Translations under genes and position numbers: made by a program | Notes under the pieces: generated by a model | Told to the model about the DNA's origin: nothing | The model's database searches: none | What the model saw: only the letters and a program-made list of their open reading frames with translations | From: Notolepis coatsorum | Lineage: Eukaryota; Chordata; Actinopteri; Aulopiformes; Paralepididae | DNA: 64,000 nucleotides | Assembly (NCBI GenBank): GCA_963971535.1 | Contig: OZ020589.1 | Coordinates: 49,891,192-49,955,191, forward strand | Direction: 5' to 3' | Part shown: piece after piece, positions 2,965 to 51,598 of the stretch | Position numbering within the stretch: position 1 is the stretch's first letter | Layout: every line of letters begins with the position of its first letter

Positions 2965-3240
2965 GCCGGTTAAGGTTAGGCATGGTTAAGGTTAAGGTTA
3001 AGGTTAGGCATTGTTTCGGAGTTGGTTAAGGTTAGAACGGTTAAGTTTAGGCGCTGTTAAGGAGCTGGTTAAGGTTAGAGTTTGTCTTAGAGAATGGCAA
3101 TATTCTTTCTATGGTTAAGGTTAGGCATGGTTAAGGTTAAGGTTAAGGTTAGGCATTGTTTCGGAGTTGGTTAAGGTTAGAACGGTTAAGTTTAGGCGCT
3201 GTTAAGGAGCTGGTTAAGGTTAGAGTTTGTGTTAGAGAAT
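2965..3240 (+). repeat. GGTTAAGGTTAGG minisatellite, ~145-bp unit twice
   Basis: A block of about 145 bp (GGTTAAGGTTAGGCATGG ... TTAGAGAATGGCAATA) occurs twice, separated by TTCTTTCTATGG-like sequence. Inside each block a GGTTAAG-type hexamer repeats irregularly. Similar words occur at about 9.66-9.72 kb and, reversed, at 35.58-35.71 kb. It is not the vertebrate telomere repeat. Confidence 0.75.
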
Positions 3241-3963
3241 GGCAATAGACAGCCTATTTCCGCGCGACAGCTCTCAGCAGCCTCGTTGCGCGTCCTGAGT
3301 TTGCCGCGTCACGTGCCTGTCGGGGCCAATCAGGCCTACCCCGGAAGTCACTTACTGTTGCGGAACAGGTACACGCGACCGGGGCCCTGTTATAAAAAGG
3401 AGGGCCTCTGGAAACAGGTGGGAAGAAGAAGAGAAGAAACTGAGAATCAACGTGAGAAGACGTCTACAGCTTCCAGAGAAACCTCATCGGTGAAGGCAAA
3501 AATAATGACATTCTACTGCAACACAAAGGAACTTTAGAATATAGGATTGGACTTTGCTTGTTTAAGAATCTTTGTAACCAATCATTTGAGAAAGGTGGAC
3601 ACCAGTGCACCTTTGCTTACGTGTAAACTGGATCCACCTAATCTATAGTATACAGTATACAACTTTTTGAGAGTGAATTGGGGCCCATTTTGTGGTCAGC
3701 CAATAAATCTCCTTTTTGTTATAACTCTCACACCTGGTGGACGTTAATTGTTTACACACCACACCATTTTTGGGATATTAGAACAACAACGCAGAGCTTA
3801 GTATTAGTAGTTTCAGAGACGACACCTGCTTCGCTTTTATGACCCAAAGGAGCTTGGATAGGTGTGGGTCTGAGGCGCCCAGAAGATGTAGGGCCTAACA
3901 AAATTAATAGTTGGTTTCCGGTTGCCGACCGACCCTGCCGATTTAGGTGCGACCCAATATATT

Positions 3964-4290: not shown

Positions 4291-4497
4291 ACATCTAACT
4301 ATAAAGGAAGGAATCTCTGCGTGTGTGTCTGTAGTTTGCACATCTCTGGAACGGTTCATCTGATTGGCTTCACATTCGGTGGGTGTATTGTTCAGGACCC
4401 CAGGGGTGCAGTGATTGGATAAACGGTTCTCGAGGAGAAGCACTTTCGGGAGCCAAGCAAACTGCCATAGTAGTAGTTAAGACGGTAAAATGTTATA

Positions 4498-5574
4498 TTT
4501 GCATATCGCCCCAACAGGTCCACGGAGGACGCCATAGCCCATGTGCTGCACACAGCAGCATCACACCTGGACAAGAGGCAGGGGAACTATGTGAGAATGC
4601 TGTTCATCGACTACAGCTCAGCATTCAATACCATAGTCCCCTCCAAACTCATAGCCAAGCTCAGGGACCTGGGCTTGAACTATGACTTCCAGTGGGTCTT
4701 GGACTATGACTTCCAGTGGGTCTTGGACTTCCTGATGGGCAGACCCCAGGTGGTAAGAGCAGGCAACTGCACCTCCTCATCCATCACGCTCAACATAGGG
4801 GCCCCCCAGGGCTGTGTTCTGAGCCCCCTCCTCTACTCCCTGTACACACATGACTGCGTAGCACAGCGGAACAACAACACCATCATCAAATTAGCTGATG
4901 ACACAGTAGTGGTGGGCCTGATCTCTGCCAACGACGAAAGGGCCTACCCGGAAGAGGTAGAGAACCTGTCACAGTGGTGTCAGGAGAACTGCCTCTCCCT
5001 GAACGTCAGCAAAACAAAAGAGATGATTGTGGACTTCAGGAGGTCGGGGGTCAAGGACTACAGCCCCCTCAGCATCGACGGGGCACCGGTTGAGAGAGTG
5101 AACAGTTTCAAGTACCTCGGAGCCCACATATCCGAGGATTTGACATGGACCACACACATTGACAGTGTTGTGAAGAAGGCACGACAACGCCTCTACTTCC
5201 TCAGGCGCCTAAGGAAGTTCCAAGTCAGTCAGAAGATCCTTAGGAACTTCTACTCATGTACAATAGAGAGCATCCTGACTGGCAACATCACCTCCTGGTT
5301 TTGGAATAGCACTGCACAAGACCGTAGCAGACTACAAAGAGTGACACGTTCAGCCGAACGCACAATTGGAGGGGGGCTTCCCACCCTCCAGAACATTTAC
5401 AACAAGCGGTGCAAGGGGAAGGCTAAGAGAATTATTAAGGACTCGAGCCACCCGAACAACTGCCTCTTTGAACTGCTGCGGTCAGGCAAGCGATACCGGA
5501 GTCTTAAGGCGAGCACAGAAAGACTCAGAAGAAGCTTCTATCCCCAAGCCATCAGGCTGCTAAACGAACAATAA
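4498..5574 (+). pseudogene. Rex1-type LINE reverse transcriptase (5'-truncated)
   Basis: A 343-residue frame (from 4543) encodes the RT half of a Rex1/CR1-group LINE polyprotein, which copies its own RNA at a nicked target. Motif A is [13 protein letters not shown], motif B is [16 protein letters not shown] and motif C is LADD. The copy at 25,072-26,142 has the canonical FADD, so a leucine replaces phenylalanine here. A 24-bp in-frame duplication (4681-4704 and 4705-4728) repeats DYDFQWVL. Similarity begins upstream of the first ATG, near 4498 ([11 protein letters not shown]). The endonuclease is absent, so this is a dead 5'-truncated copy. The 3' UTR follows and is split by a hAT. Confidence 0.88.
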
Positions 5575-9650: not shown

Positions 9651-9770
9651 GTTTGTCTTAGCTTAGGCACTCTTTCAAAGTTGGTTAAGGTTAGAGTTTG
9701 TCTTAGAGCATGGCGATAGAACGCCAGGTAGTTTGCAGTCTGTTCGACGCGGAAATGGACAAAGGAATGA
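9651..9770 (-). repeat. Fold-back MITE fragment (right piece)
   Basis: Matches, in reverse complement, the interior of the fold-back MITE at about 35.53-35.61 kb: GGTTAAGGTTAGAGTTTGTC, then GGCGATAGAACGCCAGGTAG, then TTCGACGCGGAAATGG. The nested hAT at 6544-9642 lies between this piece and the matching terminal arm at 6355. This implies that the MITE was present in the outer hAT first. Confidence 0.5.
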
Positions 9771-13940: not shown

Positions 13941-15478
13941 CCTGAACCCTACCGTCATAGGCAACTACCATCCTGTCTCTCTTCTCTCCTTCCTTTCTAA
14001 AACACTTGAACGTGCTGTATCCAACCAACTTACTGCTTATCTCTTACAGAATGACCTCCTACCTAGACCCTAATCAGTCAGGCTTCAGAACTGGTCACTC
14101 CACAGAGACAGCCCTCATTGCGGTCACAGAGGCACTTCACTTAGCAAAAGCGAAAGGCCTCTCCTCTGTCCTGATTCTCCTAGATCTATCTGCAGCCTTC
14201 GACACAGTCAACCACCAGATCCTCCTCGCGGCCCTCGCAGGAATGGGAGTGGCTGGCTCTGCGCTGACATGGTTGTCATCATACCTCAATGACCGCTCCT
14301 ACCAAGTGTCATGGAGAGAGACCCTCTCGGCCACCCGCCCCCTGCGGACGGGTGTCCCCCAGGGCTCGGTTTTAGGACCCCTTCTCTTCTCCCTCTACAC
14401 TATTATCACGTCTCATGGCTTCTCCTACCACTGTTATGCCGACGATACTCAACTCTTCCTCTCCTTCCCTCCCTCAGATATCCACGTCTCTGAGCGGATC
14501 TCGGCCTGTCTGTCCGACATCTCCGCCTGGATGACGACCAACCACCTCAAACTGAACCTAAGCAAAACAGAATTGCTCCACCTGCCGGCCAAATCCTCCC
14601 CCCTGACCGACCTTTCCATTACAGTCGAGAATGCAGCTGTGACCGTGTCCCCGACCGCCAAGAACCTTGGTGTTGTCCTTGACGACCAGTTGAACTTCTC
14701 TGCTCACATCGCAGCGACAACCAGAACCTGCCGATTCCTCCTGAGCAACGTCAGAAGGATCCGCCCCTTCCTGACAAAAGAATCCACCCAACTCCTCGTC
14801 CAATCAACAGTCATCTCCCGCCTCGACTACTGCAACGCACTGCTCGCTGGCCTCCCGGCCACTGCCACTAAGCCTCTTCAACTCATTCAGAACGCAGCGG
14901 CCCGCCTGATCTCAAACCTACCGAAGTCGGCCCATGTCACCCCACTTCTTAGGGACCTGCACTGGCTCCCCATTGCTGCACGAATCCGCTTCAAGGCCCT
15001 CGACCTAGCATACCGTGCGGCAAAGGGAACTGCTCCCGCCTACCTCCGGTCAATGGTCTCTAACTACACACCCTCAAGACCCCTACGCTCTGCTTCTTCT
15101 GGCCGCCTCAGACCTACTCCTATCCAAGCTCCGGGAGGGTCATCAAGAGAAGTCGCCTATTCTCAGTCCTTGCCCCACAATGGTGGAATGAACTACCCAC
15201 CCCAGTTAGGACAGCCGAAACACATCCAATCTTTCGCCGTCTACTAAAGACGCACTTCTTCAACCATTATCTGAATAAAAAAAAAAATATCTAACCCTAA
15301 CTAACCATACTGTCATGCACTTGTCCTAATAAACTAACCTACACTGTAGCACTCAACACTTTGACGAACATTGTTACTCAGCTGATAGAGTTGTGCCCTT
15401 CCTGATGGCTTGTCGTACAGAACTTGTAAGTCGCTTTGGATAAAAGCGTCAGCTAAATGACTAAATGTAAATGTAAAT
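13941..15478 (+). mobile_element. L2 LINE inserted in the BED-hAT gene
   Basis: The insertion is 5'-truncated and ends with the common fish L2 tail (GTCGCTTTGGATAAAAGCGT, then ACTAAATGTAAATGT repeats). GTACTC at 13,935-13,940 and 15,479-15,484 is a likely 6-bp TSD, although GT also belongs to the tail. Confidence 0.85.
14006..15247 (+). CDS. L2 LINE reverse transcriptase (partial polyprotein)
   Basis: A 413-residue open frame. Motif A is LLDLSAAFDTVNHQ (about residue 60), motif B is GVPQGSVLGPLLFSLY (about 115) and motif C is YADD (about 140). The post-RT region contains SRLDYCNALLAGL and KPLQLIQNAAARL. The N-terminal endonuclease is missing through 5' truncation. The natural C-terminus (WWNELPTPVRTAE...LLKTHFF) lies in another frame after about 15.15 kb, so one small indel has changed the end of the protein. 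The catalytic aspartates are intact, but without its endonuclease this copy cannot mobilise itself. Confidence 0.85.
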   Translation: MNVLYPTNLLLISYRMTSYLDPNQSGFRTGHSTETALIAVTEALHLAKAKGLSSVLILLDLSAAFDTVNHQILLAALAGMGVAGSALTWLSSYLNDRSYQVSWRETLSATRPLRTGVPQGSVLGPLLFSLYTIITSHGFSYHCYADDTQLFLSFPPSDIHVSERISACLSDISAWMTTNHLKLNLSKTELLHLPAKSSPLTDLSITVENAAVTVSPTAKNLGVVLDDQLNFSAHIAATTRTCRFLLSNVRRIRPFLTKESTQLLVQSTVISRLDYCNALLAGLPATATKPLQLIQNAAARLISNLPKSAHVTPLLRDLHWLPIAARIRFKALDLAYRAAKGTAPAYLRSMVSNYTPSRPLRSASSGRLRPTPIQAPGGSSREVAYSQSLPHNGGMNYPPQLGQPKHIQSFAVY

Positions 15479-24563: not shown

Positions 24564-26184
24564 CAAGTTCAAGTTCAAGTTCTTTAATAGTTGTCATACA
24601 GAAGTACAGAATACTTTCATACAAAATGCTTCTTACTGTTACGCTCCAGAGACTGTGCTAGACAAGATAGTATCAAATAACATAATAACATAATATAGCA
24701 TGAATTTAGAAGAAGAAAAATGAGGTCACAGTGTTCGGTATAGACATATGTACAATGTTCTGAGTTACCATATAATATACAATACACAATACTATGCAGT
24801 GTACTAATGTACAGTACTATCTAGTGCAAAGCAGAAATGGGATGAGGTACAATTTTAGGTACAATTTACAGTAAGGTGTACGGGTTGTAGTGCAATCCTT
24901 CATCCATAAATATAAAGTGTGGGGAGTGGGTGCTACAGTGTGTTTGTTTAAAGTGGGTGTGTGCTATAAAGTGTGTGGAGTGGGTGCTACAGTGTGTTTG
25001 TTTAAAGTGAGTGTGTGCGTGTGGATGTGTGTGCTATGTGCGTTTGGTGGTTGTTGTTGTGTAGTGTTCATTCATTGTTCGTTTAGCAGCCTGATGGCCT
25101 GGGGATAGAAGCTTCTTCTGAGTCTTTCTGTGCTCGCCTTGAGACTCCGGTATCGCTTGCCTGACCGCAGCAGTTCAAAGAGGCAGTTGTTCGGGTGACT
25201 GGAGTCTTTAATGATTCTCTTAGCCTTGCCCGTGCAACGCTTGTTGTAAATGTTCTGGAGGGTGGGGAGCCCCCCTCCAATTGTGCGTTCGGCTGAACGT
25301 GTCACTCTTTGTAGTCTGCTTCGGTCTTGTGCAGTGCTATTCCCAAACCAGGAGGTGATGTTGCCGGTCAAGATGCTCTCTATTGTACATGAGTAGAAGT
25401 TCTTAAGGATCTTCTGGCTGACTTGGAACTTCCTTAGGCGCCTGAGGAAGTAGAGGCGTTGTCGTGCCTTCTTCACAACACTGTCAATGTGTGTGGTCCA
25501 TGTCAAGTCCTCGGATATGTAGGCTCCGAGGTACTTAAAGCTGTTGACTCTCTCAACCGGTGCCCCGTCGATGCTGAGGGGGCTGTAGTCCTTGACCCCC
25601 GACCTCCTGAAGTCCACAATCATCTCCTTTGTTTTGCTGACGTTCAGGGAGAGGCTGTTTTCCTGGCACCATCCCGCCAGGACCTTGACCTCTTCCAGGT
25701 AGGCCCTCTCGTCGTTGGCAGAGATCAGGCCCACCACCACTGTGTCGTCAGCAAATTTGATGATTGTATTGCTACTCCGCTGAGCCACACAGTCGTGTGT
25801 GTACAGGGAGTAGAGGAGGGGACTCAGAACACAGCCCTGGGGGGCCCCTATGTTGAGGGTGATGGATGAGGAGGTGCAGTTGCCTGCTCTCACCACCTGG
25901 GGTCTGCCAGTCAGGAAGTCCAAGACCCACTGGCAGAGGTCATAGCCCAAGCCCAGGTCCCTGAGCTTGGCTATGAGTATGGAGGGGACTATGGTATTGA
26001 ATGCCGAGCTGTAGTCGATGAATAGCATTCTCACATAGTTCCCCTGCCTCTTGTCCAGGTGTGATGCTGCTGTGTGCAGCACATGGGCTATGGCGTCTTC
26101 CGTGGACCTGTTGGGGCGGTATGCAAATTGCAGGGGGTCCATGTTGATGGGGAGGGAGGAGCAGATGTAGCCCTTTACTAGCTA
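24564..26184 (-). mobile_element. Rex1-type LINE inserted in L1 ORF2
   Basis: The 3' tail (repeated CAAGTT on the plus strand) begins right after GATT at 24,560-24,563. The truncated 5' end meets GATT at 26,185-26,188, giving a 4-bp TSD. Removing the insert plus one GATT rejoins the L1 endonuclease frame (QMI then TLVNVYAPP), which fixes the edges. It is in the opposite orientation to its host. Confidence 0.92.
25072..26142 (-). CDS. Rex1-type LINE reverse transcriptase (5'-truncated)
   Basis: A 356-residue uninterrupted frame. Motif A is [13 protein letters not shown], motif B is [16 protein letters not shown] and motif C is FADDTVVVG, followed by the C-terminal [16 protein letters not shown]. 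It is the better preserved of the two Rex1 copies here: it lacks the 24-bp duplication of the copy at 4.7 kb and keeps the canonical FADD. The endonuclease domain is lost to 5' truncation, so the copy cannot move alone. It reads through the ATG upstream to about 26,184. Its similarity to the first copy suggests a fairly recent family. Confidence 0.9.
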
Positions 26185-29100
26185 GATTACGTTAGTGAAT
26201 GTTTATGCACCCCCAGAGAGTGAGAGGGATTTATATGAGACCATTTTTTATATGATAGTGATGGAACTAGAAGGGATATTGATATGCGCGGGAGATTTTA
26301 ATGTAGTACTGAATCACGACCTAGACACCACGAGTACTAGAAAAGGACGGGCACCAATCAGTAGATATATGAATATTCAGATGACGGAAATGGGAATTAC
26401 AGATGTTTGGAGGGGGATGCACGCCATGGACAGGGAATACACACATTACTCACACCCGCACGTGACATATGCGAGAATAGACTACTTTTTGATGACGACG
26501 GGGGACAGTTACAGGGTACGGGAGAGCAGAATAGGAGTAGCGGACATATCGGATCACAGTGCCATATATCTGACAGTAGATCTAGAAGGGAGACGGAGGA
26601 ACACGATCTGGAGACTAAATGTAGGAATATTAAATAACAAGGGGGTGGTGAGTCAGATCAAGGAGGAGATAGCCAGGTATAAGGAAGAAAATGACAATGG
26701 GGCGGTAGATCCGAACATTCTATGGGACACACTGAAGGTGGTGATAAGGGGGAAATTGATGGAGAAGACAGCAATGCTGAAGAAGGCCAGAACGGAGACA
26801 TATCACAATCTGATAGGGAAGCTGAAGAAGCTAGAGGGGAGACACCAGATATCAAAAGAACAGGAAACGCTCGGAGAAATCAAAGAAGTAAAGGCCAGGA
26901 TAAATAGGGAATTATTGACGGAAATAGAAAAGAAAGCGAGGTTCATGAAACAAACGTACTATGAAGGGGGACCAAAAGCGACCAGACTGTTGGCTAGGAG
27001 AATTAGGACGCAACAGAAGTTGAACACGATATACACACAATAAGGGATACAAAGACTAATGAAATATTGAGAGACCCAGCTGAAATAGAGGGGACATTTA
27101 GAGAATACTATGAGAAACTATACACACAGCCAAAAGCAGCGGGAGAAGAGGAAATAGAAGCATATCTGGAGAAGCTAGAGTTACCATCGATAGGGAAAGA
27201 ACAGAATGAAGAATTAAATAAAATAATTACGGAACGAGAACTGGAAGAGGCAATTAGTAGAGCTAAAAACAACAAATCTCCGGGGAGCGACAGATTCCCA
27301 TCGGAATTCTACAAGACATTTAGAACGGAATTGGCACCCATGTTAGGGGCGGCGTTCAGACACACGATGGAGGAGGGCAAAATGCCCCCCTCGTGGAAGG
27401 AAGCCATAATCACCACGATACCGAAGGAAGGGAAGGATTGTGTAGTAGTTTCAGACCTGTGTCCATACTCAACGTGGATTACAAGATGTATACATCGATA
27501 ATATTTGAGATTTGAGACGTTTATGCCAGACATTATAGATGAAGATCAAACTGGATTTATTAAAGGGAGACAGACACAGGACAACGTGAGAAAGACATTA
27601 CACATAGTAGAGGAGATACAAAAACAAGGGGGTAGCGCGGTACTGATTAGCCTAGATGCAGAAAAAGCATTCGACAGTGTGAGCTGAAAATTTTTATATA
27701 AAACATTGATGAGGTTCGGACTGAACGAGAGGGCGATGAAGATGATCAAGGCGCTATATCAAGAACCGACAGCGAGGGTTAAGGTGAATGGCAGCCTGAC
27801 GGATAGAATCAGATTAGAGAGGGCTACCAGACAGGGATGTTGTCTCTCACTAACGTTCTTCGCCGTTTTCATAGAACCACTGGCACAACTGATCAGACAG
27901 ACCGAGGACATTAAGGGAGTAAGGATAAAGGGAACGGAATATAAACTAGGCCTATTTGCGGACGACGTGATAGTATACATGAGGCAACCAGACAAGAGCT
28001 TCCCGGCACTGATGGATCTACTGAAGGAATATGGCCACTACTCAGGATACAAACTAAACGTGACAAAGACACAGACCTTAGCATGGAACTATACCTCAAC
28101 GACGGAAATTAGGGAACAGTACGGGATAAGATGGGACATGGACAAGATTAAATACTTAGGGGTGAACATCACGAGAGGGGTGGGGAAACTGTTTGAGGCG
28201 AACTATACACAGATAAATCAGAACATCAAGAGAGACTTAGAGAGATGGACAGTAATGCCCTTGGACTTCAATTCAAGAATAGAGGTCATTAAAATGAACA
28301 TACTATCAAGGTTACTGTACCTATTCCAGTCACTACCGATACAAATACCACAGAATCAATTCAGGGAGTGGGACAGACTGATATCGAGGTTCATATGGGC
28401 GGGGAGAAGACCACGGGTCAGATATAAAACACTACAACTACCAAAGGAAGAGGGAGGGATGGCAGTACCCAGCCTACAAGATTATTACTATGCAGCACAA
28501 CTGAGAGCAGTGACGTGCTGGTGTAACGACAGATATGAGGCAAGATGGAAAGACATTGAAAAAGAAGGGGAGGGATACAAGGTACAAGCTCTGGTGGGAG
28601 ATAGGGAACTATTTAAAGAAAAAGAGGGACTATTAGATCCAATCACCAAATGCACCTTGACCATATGGAACAGAGTAGTAAAAACACACAAATTGAAGAA
28701 GCAGTCAGGGGTTCTAAGATGGGTAGCACATGACAAGAGATTCAAACCATGGAGGTTAGACCATGGATTCAGAAGGTGGGAGAGGGGGGGGGGGGGGGGA
28801 ACAGCGATATGCAAAATGATAGAGAAGGGGGAAATGCAGACACTACAAAAATTAAAGGAGAAATTTGGACTAGAAAACAGGGACCACTTCAGATATCTAC
28901 AGGTTAGAGACTACTACAACAAAGAAATAAGGGGGGCCAAAGACGAAGAACAGAATGGAATAATCAAGATGAAAGTACGGGCATACGAAGGGGGGCAAGG
29001 AAGAGTAATATCAGCAATATACCGAGCTATAATGAACAGCAAGGGACACACGACCGATTACATAAGGGAGACATGGGAGAGAGAACTAGAGATAGAAATA

Positions 29101-29912
29101 ACAGGGAAGGAATGGGGGAACATATGCGAGGTGCAACATTCAACAACAGGATCGAGGATATGGAAAGAGTTTGGATGGAAAAACATAATCAGATTCTTTA
29201 TAACCCCAGAGCTGAAGGGAAAATATGCACCAACACAAAGAGCATGCTGGAGGATGTGTGGGAAGGAGGGGGCAAATCACACGCACATATTCTGGGGATG
29301 TCAGAAGCTGAAGGGGTATTGGGAGGAGATAGGGGAGGCAATGATCTGAATAATAGGATACGGGTTACCACAAACAGGACTGGTGCTTTACTTAGGAGAC
29401 CTGACACACGAGGGAATACAAGGGGGGGACAAATATTTAATAAAGATAATGTTGATAGCGGCCAGAAAAGCAATAACAAGACTGTGGTACAAAGAAGACC
29501 CACCGACAATAGCACAATGGGTAGGAATAGTGGAAGAGATACAGGATATGGAGAGGATAACACACATGCTGAGGTTACAGGAAGAGAAATTTGGAGAAAG
29601 ATGGGGAAAGTGGGAGGATTACAAGGGGAATGAAAACGACATCACAGAGGAAGAACCAAATACATCACAAGAGGGCGAAGGGTAAAGGAGGAAAGAGGTT
29701 CAAAGAGGGTCTCTGAACCCATGTCACACACTTAATGTTTTACAATTGTTTTATGTTTTTTTAAGTCAGTATTTTTATTTTTCATCTTTTGGGCATTACA
29801 ATTTTTTCTTTATTATTTATGTCTGTTTAATAGTGTTGTTGAAGTTATTGTATATGTTGTATTGTTTGTCTCAATAAAAATGTAAGTTAAAAAAAAAAAA
29901 ACGAATGCCGTT

Positions 29913-35123: not shown

Positions 35124-35411
35124 TGATTTATGAAACACAAATTGAGAGGTGTGTGTGTGTGGATCGTTTTTTACGATTGTGGATTCTACTTTTGCGTTAT
35201 TTTTTATAGAAATCTACCCTCATAGGCTGGCAGGCTGGTTGGAGATGGAGAGGAGAGGCCACATGAGCTAGGGGAAGCCATCCATTAAACCTTAGGTCTG
35301 GCGGGTGGAACCAATCAGCTCCCTGGAAACCTACACATTCACAATCATTCACTCAAGCAGTCAGTCAACCGTGCTCACCTGCAGCCCATCACACATAGCC
35401 AGCACAGCAGC

Positions 35412-35782
35412 CTTATTTTTTTTCGTAGCCGCATTTCTGGCAGACGCTCTCTGATTGGCCACTGACTGACGCTCTCTGATTGGCCACTGACGCGTTTGCC
35501 CAATCGCGTGACGAGCTGTGTCTTTGCCCATTTCCGCGTCAAACAGCCTGCAAACTACCTGGCGTTCTATCGCCATGCTCTAAGACAAACTCTAACCTTA
35601 ACCAACTTCGAAAGAGTGCCTAAGCTTAACCGCCGAAAGAACTTGCCGTCACGCTCTAAGACAAACTCTAACCTTAACCAACTTTGAAAGAGTGCCTAAG
35701 CTTAACCAGTGTAGAAACAGGCGTCGGTCAATCGGAGAGCGTCTTGCCAGAAATGCGGCTACGAAAAAAAATAACGCAGCAC
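35412..35782. mobile_element. Fold-back MITE (long inverted ends)
   Basis: Arms TTTCGTAGCCGCATTTCTGG (left) and its near-perfect reverse complement (right, about 35,745-35,770) extend over about 50 bp. CAGCACAGCAG occurs just outside both ends, a 9-11 bp TSD as seen for Mutator-like elements. The interior has a ~70-bp duplication (CTCTAAGACAAACTCTAACC). Fragments of the same family lie at 6.36 and 9.65 kb. Confidence 0.7.
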
Positions 35783-35828
35783 AGCAGGCTCACCATGGAG
35801 AGAGAGGGGGGGGGGGGTATGTTTGTAT

Positions 35829-35895
35829 TGGTATGTATGTATGTATGTATGTATGTATGTATGCATGTATCTATGTATCTATGTATGTATGTATG
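35829..35895. repeat. (GTAT)n microsatellite, left block
   Basis: GTAT repeat with a few ATCT variants. It continues at 36,386 on the other side of the LTR-LTR element, which appears to have inserted into it. Confidence 0.9.
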
Positions 35896-36027
35896 TGTAA
35901 CGGAGGTACCGCATGTCTATCCACAGTCACGATGGACAGTGTAGTGAAGTGGCTGTGGACGTTAAGCGGTACTGCAAGTAAACTCACTCCCCAGAGACAT
36001 CCAGATCCATTACCAAGGAGGTGAGTT

Positions 36028-36090
36028 CACCTCTTGGTATAGTGGTCGGCGATGTCGCCCGCGGCGCGGGAGACCGGGGTTCAATCCCAC
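36028..36090 (+). other. tRNA-Asp-like segment in the first LTR
   Basis: TTGGTATAGTGGTCGG resembles the A-box region of tRNA-Asp (TATAGTGGT). CCCGC...GCGGGAGACCGGGG matches its anticodon stem and variable region, and GGTTCAATCC is a B box. The anticodon loop is reduced to about 3 nt, so it cannot act as a tRNA; a pol III promoter role is possible. Confidence 0.65.
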
Positions 36091-36292
36091 TCAGGGCATG
36101 TCAAATGAGACCGGTTACAGTGGTGCCCAGTGACCCGGATGCCCTGGGTGGAGTGAGTTTAGGGGGGTGAGTGTAACGGAGGTACCGCGTGTCTATCCAC
36201 AGTCACGATGGACAGTGTAGTGAAGTGGCTGTGGACGTTAAGCGGTACTGCAAGTAAACTCACTCCCCAGAGGCATCCAGACCCATTACCAA

Positions 36293-36357
36293 GACCTCTT
36301 GGTATAGTGGTCGGCGATGTCACCCGCGACGCGGGAGGCCGGGGTTCAACTCCCACT
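36293..36357 (+). other. tRNA-Asp-like segment in the second LTR
   Basis: Same as the segment at 36,028: TTGGTATAGTGGTCGG, then CCCGCGACGCGGGAGGCC and GGTTCAACTCC. The loop is again about 3 nt. It differs from the first by an upstream 11-bp gap and a few substitutions. Confidence 0.65.
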
Positions 36358-36384
36358 CAGGGCATGTCAAATGAGACCGGTTAC

Positions 36385-36385
<1 letters not shown>

Positions 36386-36440
<55 letters not shown>

Positions 36441-37435: not shown

Positions 37436-37892
37436 TAGGGCGGTCAGGTGGCGTAGCGGAGATTGCGCTCGTCACCGACGCAGGAGATGCTGGGTTCGAG
37501 CCCAGCTCTCGGCATTGCTACCAGCTTGGTCGTTCATACTAATACAATTGGCAGTATTAGGGGGTGGGAAGCTGGTGGGTGGGAATCTGGCGTTGTGGAC
37601 AGATCAGGTCTCGGCGCTTGCTCAGCGGGGGCAGGACTTGGTGGAGATAGCGTGCCCTCCCACGCGTTACACTTCACCAATGAGAGTCCTCGCTGCCAAG
37701 TGAAAAGACGTCACTGGCAGTCGCCACACGTATCGGAGGAAGCGCGCGGTCGGCTTCGGGACGCCCATGTACCGACTCGTAGGAGAACGTGCATACAGCA
37801 GCCAGGTAGGGGAGGGGGGGAATTGGCACGGCGACTAAATTGGGACAGGGAGAAAAACAGAAAATTGGAGAAAGAGAAATAAAAAAATTAAA
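37436..37892 (+). mobile_element. tRNA-derived SINE, family S, full-length copy 1
   Basis: About 457 bp with an exact 20-bp TSD (37,416-37,435 and 37,893-37,912). The head has an A-box-like TGGCGTAGCGGAG and B box GGTTCGAGCCC about 40 bp apart; the tail is A-rich. It shares most of its length with the copy at 40.7 kb (ACTAATACAATTGGCAGTAT). The frame reading across it is not a gene. Confidence 0.92.
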
Positions 37893-40690: not shown

Positions 40691-40711
40691 CTGAGAAAAA
40701 GACAATGCATG

Positions 40712-41175
40712 GGCGGCTAAGTGGCGCAGTGGACAAGGCGCTCGCCACTAACGCAGGAGATGCTGGGTTCGAGGCCCAGCTCTCGGCGTTGCTTCCGGCT
40801 TGGCTGGTCGTTCATACTAATACAATTGGCAGTATTAGGGGGTGGGAAAGCCGGTGGGTGGGGATCGGACGTTGTGGACAGCGACTCCTAAAGGTCGGTT
40901 GGTGCGCCTGTACAGCAGAATCAGGAAGCAACGGGGGCAGCGTGAGCCTCCCACGTGTTACTCCTCGCCACTGAGAGATTGCGGTGTGCAGGTGAAAAGA
41001 TGCGACGGCTGCCTCCTCGTGTACCGGAAGAGACACGTGATGCAAGGCTTCATCCACATTGCAGCCGACCAGTGGGAGGCATGGTCTAACAACGTTCGAG
41101 ACCGGGGAGGGTAGAATTGGATAATACGAAATTGAGATGGGAGAAAATAGAAAATGGGGAGAAAAAGTAGATAAA
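40712..41175 (+). mobile_element. tRNA-derived SINE, family S, full-length copy 2
   Basis: About 464 bp with a 16-bp TSD AAAAAGACAATGCATG (40,696-40,711 and 41,176-41,191). A-box-like TGGCGCAGTGGAC and B box GGTTCGAGGCCC. It ends in an A-rich GATAAAAAAA tail. Same family as 37.4 kb and, truncated, 18.15 kb. Confidence 0.92.
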
Positions 41176-50388: not shown

Positions 50389-51598
50389 GAACAGAAAAGA
50401 ATATAAGGTGTACAACAACCTATCGAAGGAAGAACTTACTTACTTACCCCGTTTGGGGCATAGGCCGTCAACAAGGGTTCTCCAAGCATCCCGATCCTGA
50501 GCCAACCTCTCAAGCTGGCCCCAGGTGTGTCCCATTTTCTTGGCATCATCTTCCAAGTCTCGGCGCCAGGTGTTTCGTGGTCGGCCTCTCTTTCTTTTCC
50601 CTTGGGGGTTCCACCTGAGAGATTGTCTGTTCCACCGAAGGAAGAAAGGGAAGCATTAAACAAACTTTCTAAATATACCACTTTGATTGTGAAAAATGCA
50701 GACAAAGGAGGGGCTATTATTGTTCAAAATAGGAGTGATTATGAGAAGGAAGTGCACCGTCAGTTAGGAGATGCTAAGAATTACAGAAAACGTTCTGGAA
50801 ATCCAACAGATATTAAAAAAAAATGTGATTCATCATCAATTAAAGAATTGGTTGGACAATGGCCTCTTGACCAAAAGAGAATATGACTTTCTGAAGATAG
50901 ATCATCCAATGACTCCAGTGTTCTATTGCCTGCCAAAAGTCCATAAAGATCCGGTTCAACCTAAAGGTAGACCAATAGTGGCAGCAATTGGATCTCTCAC
51001 TGAAAACATCTCTTCCTATGTGGACTTCTTCCTACAACCAATTGTGAAATCTCTCCCATCCTTCACACAGGATTCAACAGACCTACTTAAGACCTACATG
51101 GCCTGCTTGGACATCGAATCCTTGTACACCTCAGTACCCCATACAGGGGCTCTAGAAGCTCTGACACTGTTCCTGAATCAACGTCCACCGGATTCAACAC
51201 CAGAAACACACGTTCTTATAGAACTGACAGAGACTCTACTCACGCATAACTACTTCATGTTCCAAGATGAGAACTATCTACAAATCAAAGGCGTGAGTAT
51301 GGGAAGCAAAACCAGCCCGTCCATAGCCAATGTTTATATGGGTCTTTTTGAGCAGAATTATGTATTCAACTCTTCAGAAAATGTGTTTTTACCATACATT
51401 AAGATGTGGAAAAGATATAAAGATGATATTTGCATACTGTGGACAGGGGATGAAATGACACTGATACAATTCTTTAATTTCCTCAATGCCAAAAATTAAC
51501 ATCTAAAGTTTACTATGGAGTATGACCTACACCAAGTACATTTCTTAGATATTATAATAAAAAAAGACAATGGAACATTCCAAACGGATGTATACAGA
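50389..51598 (+). pseudogene. PLE pre-RT and reverse transcriptase
   Basis: NRKEYKVYNNLSKEE is followed, after the LINE fragment, by REALNKLSKYTTLIVKNADKG. The main RT frame (50,771-51,499) has FYCLPKVHKDPVQPKGRPIV, motif A CLDIESLYTSVPH, motif B KGVSMGSKTSPSIANVYM and motif C YKDD. YCLPK.HK and GRPIV..IGSLTE are PLE-specific landmarks. Defects include a frame change near 50.8 kb and a stop at 51,497-51,499, after which HLKFTMEYDLHQVHFLDI continues. PLE RTs prime from DNA 3' ends and often reside near telomeres; no such location is shown here. Confidence 0.85.
50435..50635 (-). mobile_element. LINE 3' fragment in the PLE
   Basis: 11-bp TSD CGAAGGAAGAA (50,424-50,434 and 50,636-50,646). The minus strand reads RGRPRNTWRRDLEDDAKKMG and LERLAQDRDAW. 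The 3' tail is a (GTAA)n run. Removing 212 bp rejoins the PLE frame (LSKEE, then REALNKL). Same LINE type as 56.18 kb; clade not certain (possibly RTE-like). Confidence 0.85.

Follow-up and report, generated by a model that had tools for sequence, protein, structure and literature searches.

In the 64-kb window, that is, the whole stretch of DNA that was analysed, two direct repeats lie on the forward strand at positions 35896–36119 (LTR1, the 5′ LTR; 224 bp, TGTAAC...GTTACA) and 36172–36385 (LTR2, the 3′ LTR; 214 bp). They are separated by a 52-bp interior (36120–36171), so that the whole element comprises 490 bp; all of its features given below are on this strand. The span 35892–36389 described in the earlier note corresponds to this element plus a TATG on each side (35892–35895 and 36386–36389), which we take as the left and right copies of a probable 4-bp TSD lying in the phase of a (TATG)n microsatellite, by analogy with the 4-bp TSD at other loci. 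The repeat lengths, TG...CA ends and 52-bp spacing claimed there were borne out to the base, and so were the TGG after the first repeat and the purine-rich run before the second, which represent a primer-binding site (PBS) and a polypurine tract (PPT). The PPT, AGGGGGGTGAG (36161–36171), directly adjoins LTR2; according to the sequence and the family comparison, it is unchanged in 14 of the 16 interiors listed for the family, with one extra G in L017 and one G less in L040.

The two LTRs differ by six transitions over 213 aligned sites (K2P 0.029) and by two gaps, of 11 bp and of 1 bp. The LTR alignment places the 11-bp segment (36018–36028) in a palindrome directly upstream of the A box of LTR1; since this segment occurs in 50 of the 51 LTR copies compared, LTR2 most likely lost it. 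Neither AATAAA nor ATTAAA is present in the window's copy, and the LTR comparison revealed no further copies of the element within the 64 kb.

Both LTRs bear a tRNA-like region (36030–36088 in LTR1 and 36295–36354 in LTR2), within which motif matching identified an A-box-like site (36035–36045 and 36300–36310) and a B box (36078–36088 and 36343–36353). When the LTRs were compared with 21 human-type tRNAs, tRNA-Asp gave the top score in both of them (59 and 61), followed by tRNA-Glu, and none of 500 dinucleotide shuffles reached the tRNA-like score of either LTR, thus confirming the tRNA-Asp-like A and B boxes proposed earlier for both repeats. ARAGORN and Rfam reported no tRNA for the element, and in neither LTR did the tRNA-like stretch fold better than shuffles. 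On these grounds, the tRNA-like part is, judging from its sequence, best read as promoter-like and not as a tRNA gene. Pairs of an A box and a downstream B box at the tRNA-like spacing occur four times in the window, twice in this element and twice in SINE-like repeats, and not once in 100 shuffles. The SINE-like repeats (37438–37600 and 40711–40879) are 86% identical over 169 bp, contain both boxes each, and have tRNA-Thr as the best match among the tRNAs compared.

To place the element within its host genome, we searched the window's own assembly (3,421,551,600 bases in 4787 contigs, the window being part of contig C13) with the LTR as a query and obtained at least 60 matches on 17 contigs from the best 40 of 2787 first-look candidates. 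Because 60 matches came from only 40 scored candidates out of 2787, the family is large, the matches listed being a sample of it. Among the matches listed, 42 loci were examined, two of which duplicate others; the remaining 40 distinct loci comprise 17 with the LTR–interior–LTR arrangement, 22 solo LTRs and a broken copy (L015). The two-LTR loci include 11 with intact outer ends, five that are truncated or interrupted (L008, L017, L031, L034 and L040), and L042, where two records were joined by hand. The interiors measure 50–52 bp in the 16 listed. Both element ends are intact in 35 records, 33 of which start with TGTAAC, while 21 end with GTTACA and 11 with GTTTCA. Dispersed LTR–52-bp–LTR copies as well as solo LTRs, both flanked by matching TSDs, are what the earlier note had named as support for a mobile element (with TSDs of 4–6 bp there and 4 bp here); the tandem arrays, A-tailed SINEs or one-off duplication that it had named as evidence to the contrary were not what the loci examined showed. 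Two loci, L002 and L003, have flanks in common over 228 and 350 aligned bases and probably represent a single insertion, of which one copy has both LTRs and the other only a solo LTR, consistent with LTR–LTR recombination after a duplication. The element had no match in the collections viral_contigs (0), genome_contigs (0) and phages.

Among the 35 records whose two ends are intact, 20 have an exact 4-bp TSD (two of them, L001 and L019, sit in microsatellites), vs. 56 of 1190 cross-pairs combining the flanks of different records that match at 4 bp. The number rises to 28 of 35 when one mismatch at most is allowed. Exact matches at 3, 5, 6 or 7 bp were absent from all 35. An exact 4-bp TSD is lacking in 15 records, with two or more mismatches in seven; L042 counts here as two TSD-less records, and when it is joined its outer flanks are both CTGG. 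The 28 sites with no more than one TSD mismatch, one of which, from L042, is no genuine target site, show a palindromic target preference, T-G-C-N-N-G-C-A (T in 21, G in 17, C in 22, G in 18, C in 15 and A in 19 of the 28). The TSD of the window's own copy had been considered uninformative on account of its microsatellite flanks; it is not wholly so, as the (TATG)n phase on both sides limits the possible TSD length to 4 or 8 bp among the lengths of 2–8 bp tried.

In the window's copy, a TGG begins one base after LTR1 and opens a PBS of the tRNA-His type bearing a 2-nt CA insertion (36121–36140), equalled by one of 5000 shuffles. Only two of the 2088 TGG sites in the window score as high, namely this PBS and a site at 50603 with a slightly higher score against tRNA-Gln. 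The TGG is intact in 15 of the 16 interiors, and the CA insertion is present in 12 of them, at separate loci. The four interiors without CA (L004, L011, L017 and L024) match tRNA-His at 17, 16, 17 and 16 of 18 positions, respectively, which answers the suggestion of the earlier note to compare the bases after the LTR with tRNA 3′ ends. The shorter interior of L042 is also devoid of CA. With the CA in place, the window's own PBS matches tRNA-His at 9 of 18 positions when no gap is allowed.

The CA insertion changes the ungapped match of the first 12 PBS bases from 12 to 8 for tRNA-His and from 8 to 11 for elongator tRNA-Met. The match to the 3′ end of the element's own tRNA-like part is 10 of 12 whether CA is present or absent; for the LTR1 version of this end, it amounts to 14 of 18 and falls to 10 of 18 with CA. 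When gaps are allowed, tRNA-His is still the best for the CA-type PBS (26 vs. 19–20). CA occurs in these interiors although the use of tRNA-His as a primer would be expected to repair the PBS, as would follow from the PBS being copied off the primer. A primer switch caught within one family would be unusual, if true; we find it improbable that the family is switching its reverse-transcription primer, and we do not favour the 3′ end of its own tRNA-like part as the primer, since the best gapped score of tRNA-His for the CA type weakens both proposals. The PBS is nevertheless seen in two states inside one genome, and this raises the question of whether primer choice may shift inside a single family.

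The alignment of 47 LTRs showed a mean conservation of 0.976 for U3 (positions 1–115) and 0.947 for the tRNA-like part. Among 214 11-mers, the B box (0.988) ranks 42nd and the A box (0.930) 176th, the latter thus belonging to the less conserved stretches. U3 can fold into a hairpin of 19 pairs (35905–35973 in LTR1, z −3.2 vs. shuffles; 36181–36249 in LTR2, from folding and the family alignment), with 98.9% of 889 cells paired in the 47 LTRs. Two of its pairs bear double changes, a number reached in 6 of 500 shuffles and also by the same structure slid by three columns, so that the double changes are weak support for the hairpin. Whether constraint in the family is greater on the U3 hairpin than on the promoter boxes is a question that these data raise. 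A second A-box-like match, TAGTGAAGTGG, lies within the hairpin of each LTR (35942–35952 and 36218–36228).

Each whole LTR gives a better fold than shuffles do (z −3.5 and −2.2), and so does the transcript expected from the promoter (36029–36385, z −5.1). An interior stretch (36137–36161) shows complementarity to part of U3 in the LTRs (36255–36278 in LTR2), as revealed by the shuffle test; this complementarity was matched in none of 3000 shuffles for LTR2 and in one of 3000 for LTR1. In the family, 95.3% of the cells of this stem pair. We claim no function for it, since the family alignment showed no covariation in spite of the strong shuffle result. In the palindrome that precedes the A box, 89.1% of the cells are paired, and the family alignment showed no covariation there either. 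The Rfam scan of the window at the gathering score yielded no family, and weaker Rfam hits were set aside as microsatellite or near-chance matches.

The data allow us to conclude with near certainty that the element is, in its structural part, a Helenus-type TRIM, an LTR retrotransposon that is neither autonomous nor coding. This conclusion rests on the two LTRs, PBS, PPT, 4-bp TSDs, the palindromic target and the dispersed two-LTR and solo copies. The same features bear on other readings of the locus. The microsatellite setting, where slippage is common, might suggest that a one-off local duplication or a tandem array mimics two LTRs; this has next to no probability and was rejected, given that the copies are scattered over 17 contigs and have TSDs of their own, and that a PBS and PPT can be recognized in the 16 listed interiors, 15 of them with TGG. 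A tRNA-headed SINE mobilised by a LINE (SINE2, a single tRNA-headed unit without LTRs) would explain the tRNA-like A and B boxes, and SINE-like repeats do lie nearby at 37438 and 40711. We nevertheless rejected it as very improbable in view of the two-LTR and solo-LTR copies, the TG...CA ends, the 4-bp TSDs and the central position of the tRNA-like part within the repeat. Equally improbable is a tRNA gene of the host or a locus for a structural RNA, to which the tRNA-Asp likeness and the folding of the LTRs (z as above) could point: there is no cloverleaf and no tRNA hit in Rfam or ARAGORN, and similar copies are many and dispersed, so that a tRNA gene was rejected.

What remains to be weighed is how the element is transcribed. 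It may be an ordinary TRIM that depends on RNA polymerase II for transcription, with the tRNA-like part being a captured relic, e.g. of a SINE, that no longer acts as a promoter. The conservation of the A box below that of most of the LTR, the higher conservation of U3 than of the tRNA-like part, and the lack of a T4 terminator (TTTT) in 50 of 51 LTRs, only one having it, agree with this possibility. On the other side, both boxes are kept exact in 36 of the 51 LTRs, the B box is highly conserved, and the window's copy is devoid of AATAAA and ATTAAA, so that we regard the pol II reading as rather unlikely. Since pol III and pol II transcription are mutually exclusive here, our confidence in the whole explanation, a Helenus-type TRIM presumably transcribed by pol III, goes no further than likely. 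The rank of the A box and the 50 LTRs without T4 count against a pol III constraint; the absence of a tRNA in Rfam and ARAGORN output, the CA in the window's PBS and the 15 of 35 records without an exact TSD also speak against this explanation.

According to the Helenus-type model that we prefer, the tRNA-Asp-like boxes of the 5′ LTR would recruit RNA polymerase III, which would start directly upstream of the A box and continue across both the interior and the 3′ LTR. Minus-strand DNA would be primed at the PBS by the host tRNA-His and then jump to the identical R sequence in the 3′ LTR. Any read-through beyond the 3′ LTR would be lost at this step, and therefore no terminator would be required in the LTR. 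The plus strand would be primed by the PPT, while reverse transcriptase and integrase would be supplied in trans by a putative autonomous element, most likely of the Gypsy/Ty3 type, as proposed for animal Helenus. Subsequent LTR–LTR recombination would leave the solo LTRs.

TRIMs with tRNA-derived LTRs were named Helenus by Kojima 2024, who reported them in fungi, a plant and six animal phyla (PMC10886601). In that paper, animal Helenus elements have 4-bp TSDs and PBS regions resembling those of Gypsy elements, and vertebrate ones have tRNA-His, Leu or Lys as primers; Helenus lengths range over 311–1263 bp (PMC10886601). The present family is of the Helenus kind, as described already in 2024, and was set against Helenus by its described features. 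It resembles Helenus in being a TRIM (below 1000 bp, its LTRs of 224 and 214 bp flanking the 52-bp interior) that carries tRNA-derived sequence in both LTRs, with the likeness at the box level only, and in having a short interior with a tRNA-complementary PBS next to the 5′ LTR (tRNA-His, 16–17 of 18 in CA-less interiors) and a PPT directly before the 3′ LTR; the 4-bp TSDs as in animal families, His among the vertebrate primers, solo LTRs and box B GGTTC are also shared (PMC10886601). The best tRNA here is Asp, whereas the fish Helenus figure is aligned to tRNA-Val, and box A in the window's LTRs, TGGTATAGTGG, contains TGGTA, unlike the TRGCY (motif TRGCY...YGG) of most Helenus LTRs (PMC10886601). 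The conservation around the boxes reported between Helenus families has no counterpart for the A box within the present family, and primer changes were inferred there between lineages (PMC10886601). The pol III promoter function of Helenus is left unproven there as well (PMC10886601).

The earlier note compared the element with plant Cassandra, likewise a TRIM with a pol III-type promoter within the LTR, and the genome search supports an animal counterpart with a tRNA-like promoter, for which pol III use is suggested by the sequence. Unlike the present element, Cassandra has a 5S rRNA promoter, occurs in land plants and is 565–860 bp long (PMC10886601); no 5S rRNA-derived sequence was matched in our Rfam scans. 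Ajax of nemerteans is similarly short (421–434 bp) and its LTR likewise contains a small-RNA promoter, but this is 5S rRNA-derived and the TSDs are 5 bp (PMC10886601). Bivalve TRIMs are also animal TRIMs, with short inner domains holding inverted repeats, but the accessible part of their description names no unambiguous PBS and no tRNA-like promoter (PMC6934838). The expectation of a little-described system did not hold, since the description of Helenus covers such elements (PMC10886601); that paper is the sole mention of tRNA-like LTRs in the titles and abstract starts of the literature matches listed. The family described here provides an independent, control-backed example of an animal TRIM with a tRNA-like LTR, well-established TSDs of 4 bp and a preference for palindromic targets.

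Other parts of the window hold further repeats and reading frames. A foldback repeat at 35397–35790 has 46-nt arms that are 87% complementary and 302 nt apart, enclosing TTAACC-type repeats, and pieces related to it lie at 9660–9764 and within 2996–3249. The Pfam domain RVT_1 was found in five of the ten ORFs scanned (4489–5571, 13961–15244, 25075–26181, 27688–29346 and 50768–51496). The protein matches point to a fish-like host: fish proteins are among the best named relatives of the reverse-transcriptase ORFs at 25075 and 27688, and one reverse-transcriptase ORF in the window is 65–69% identical to its best named hits, which are from teleosts.
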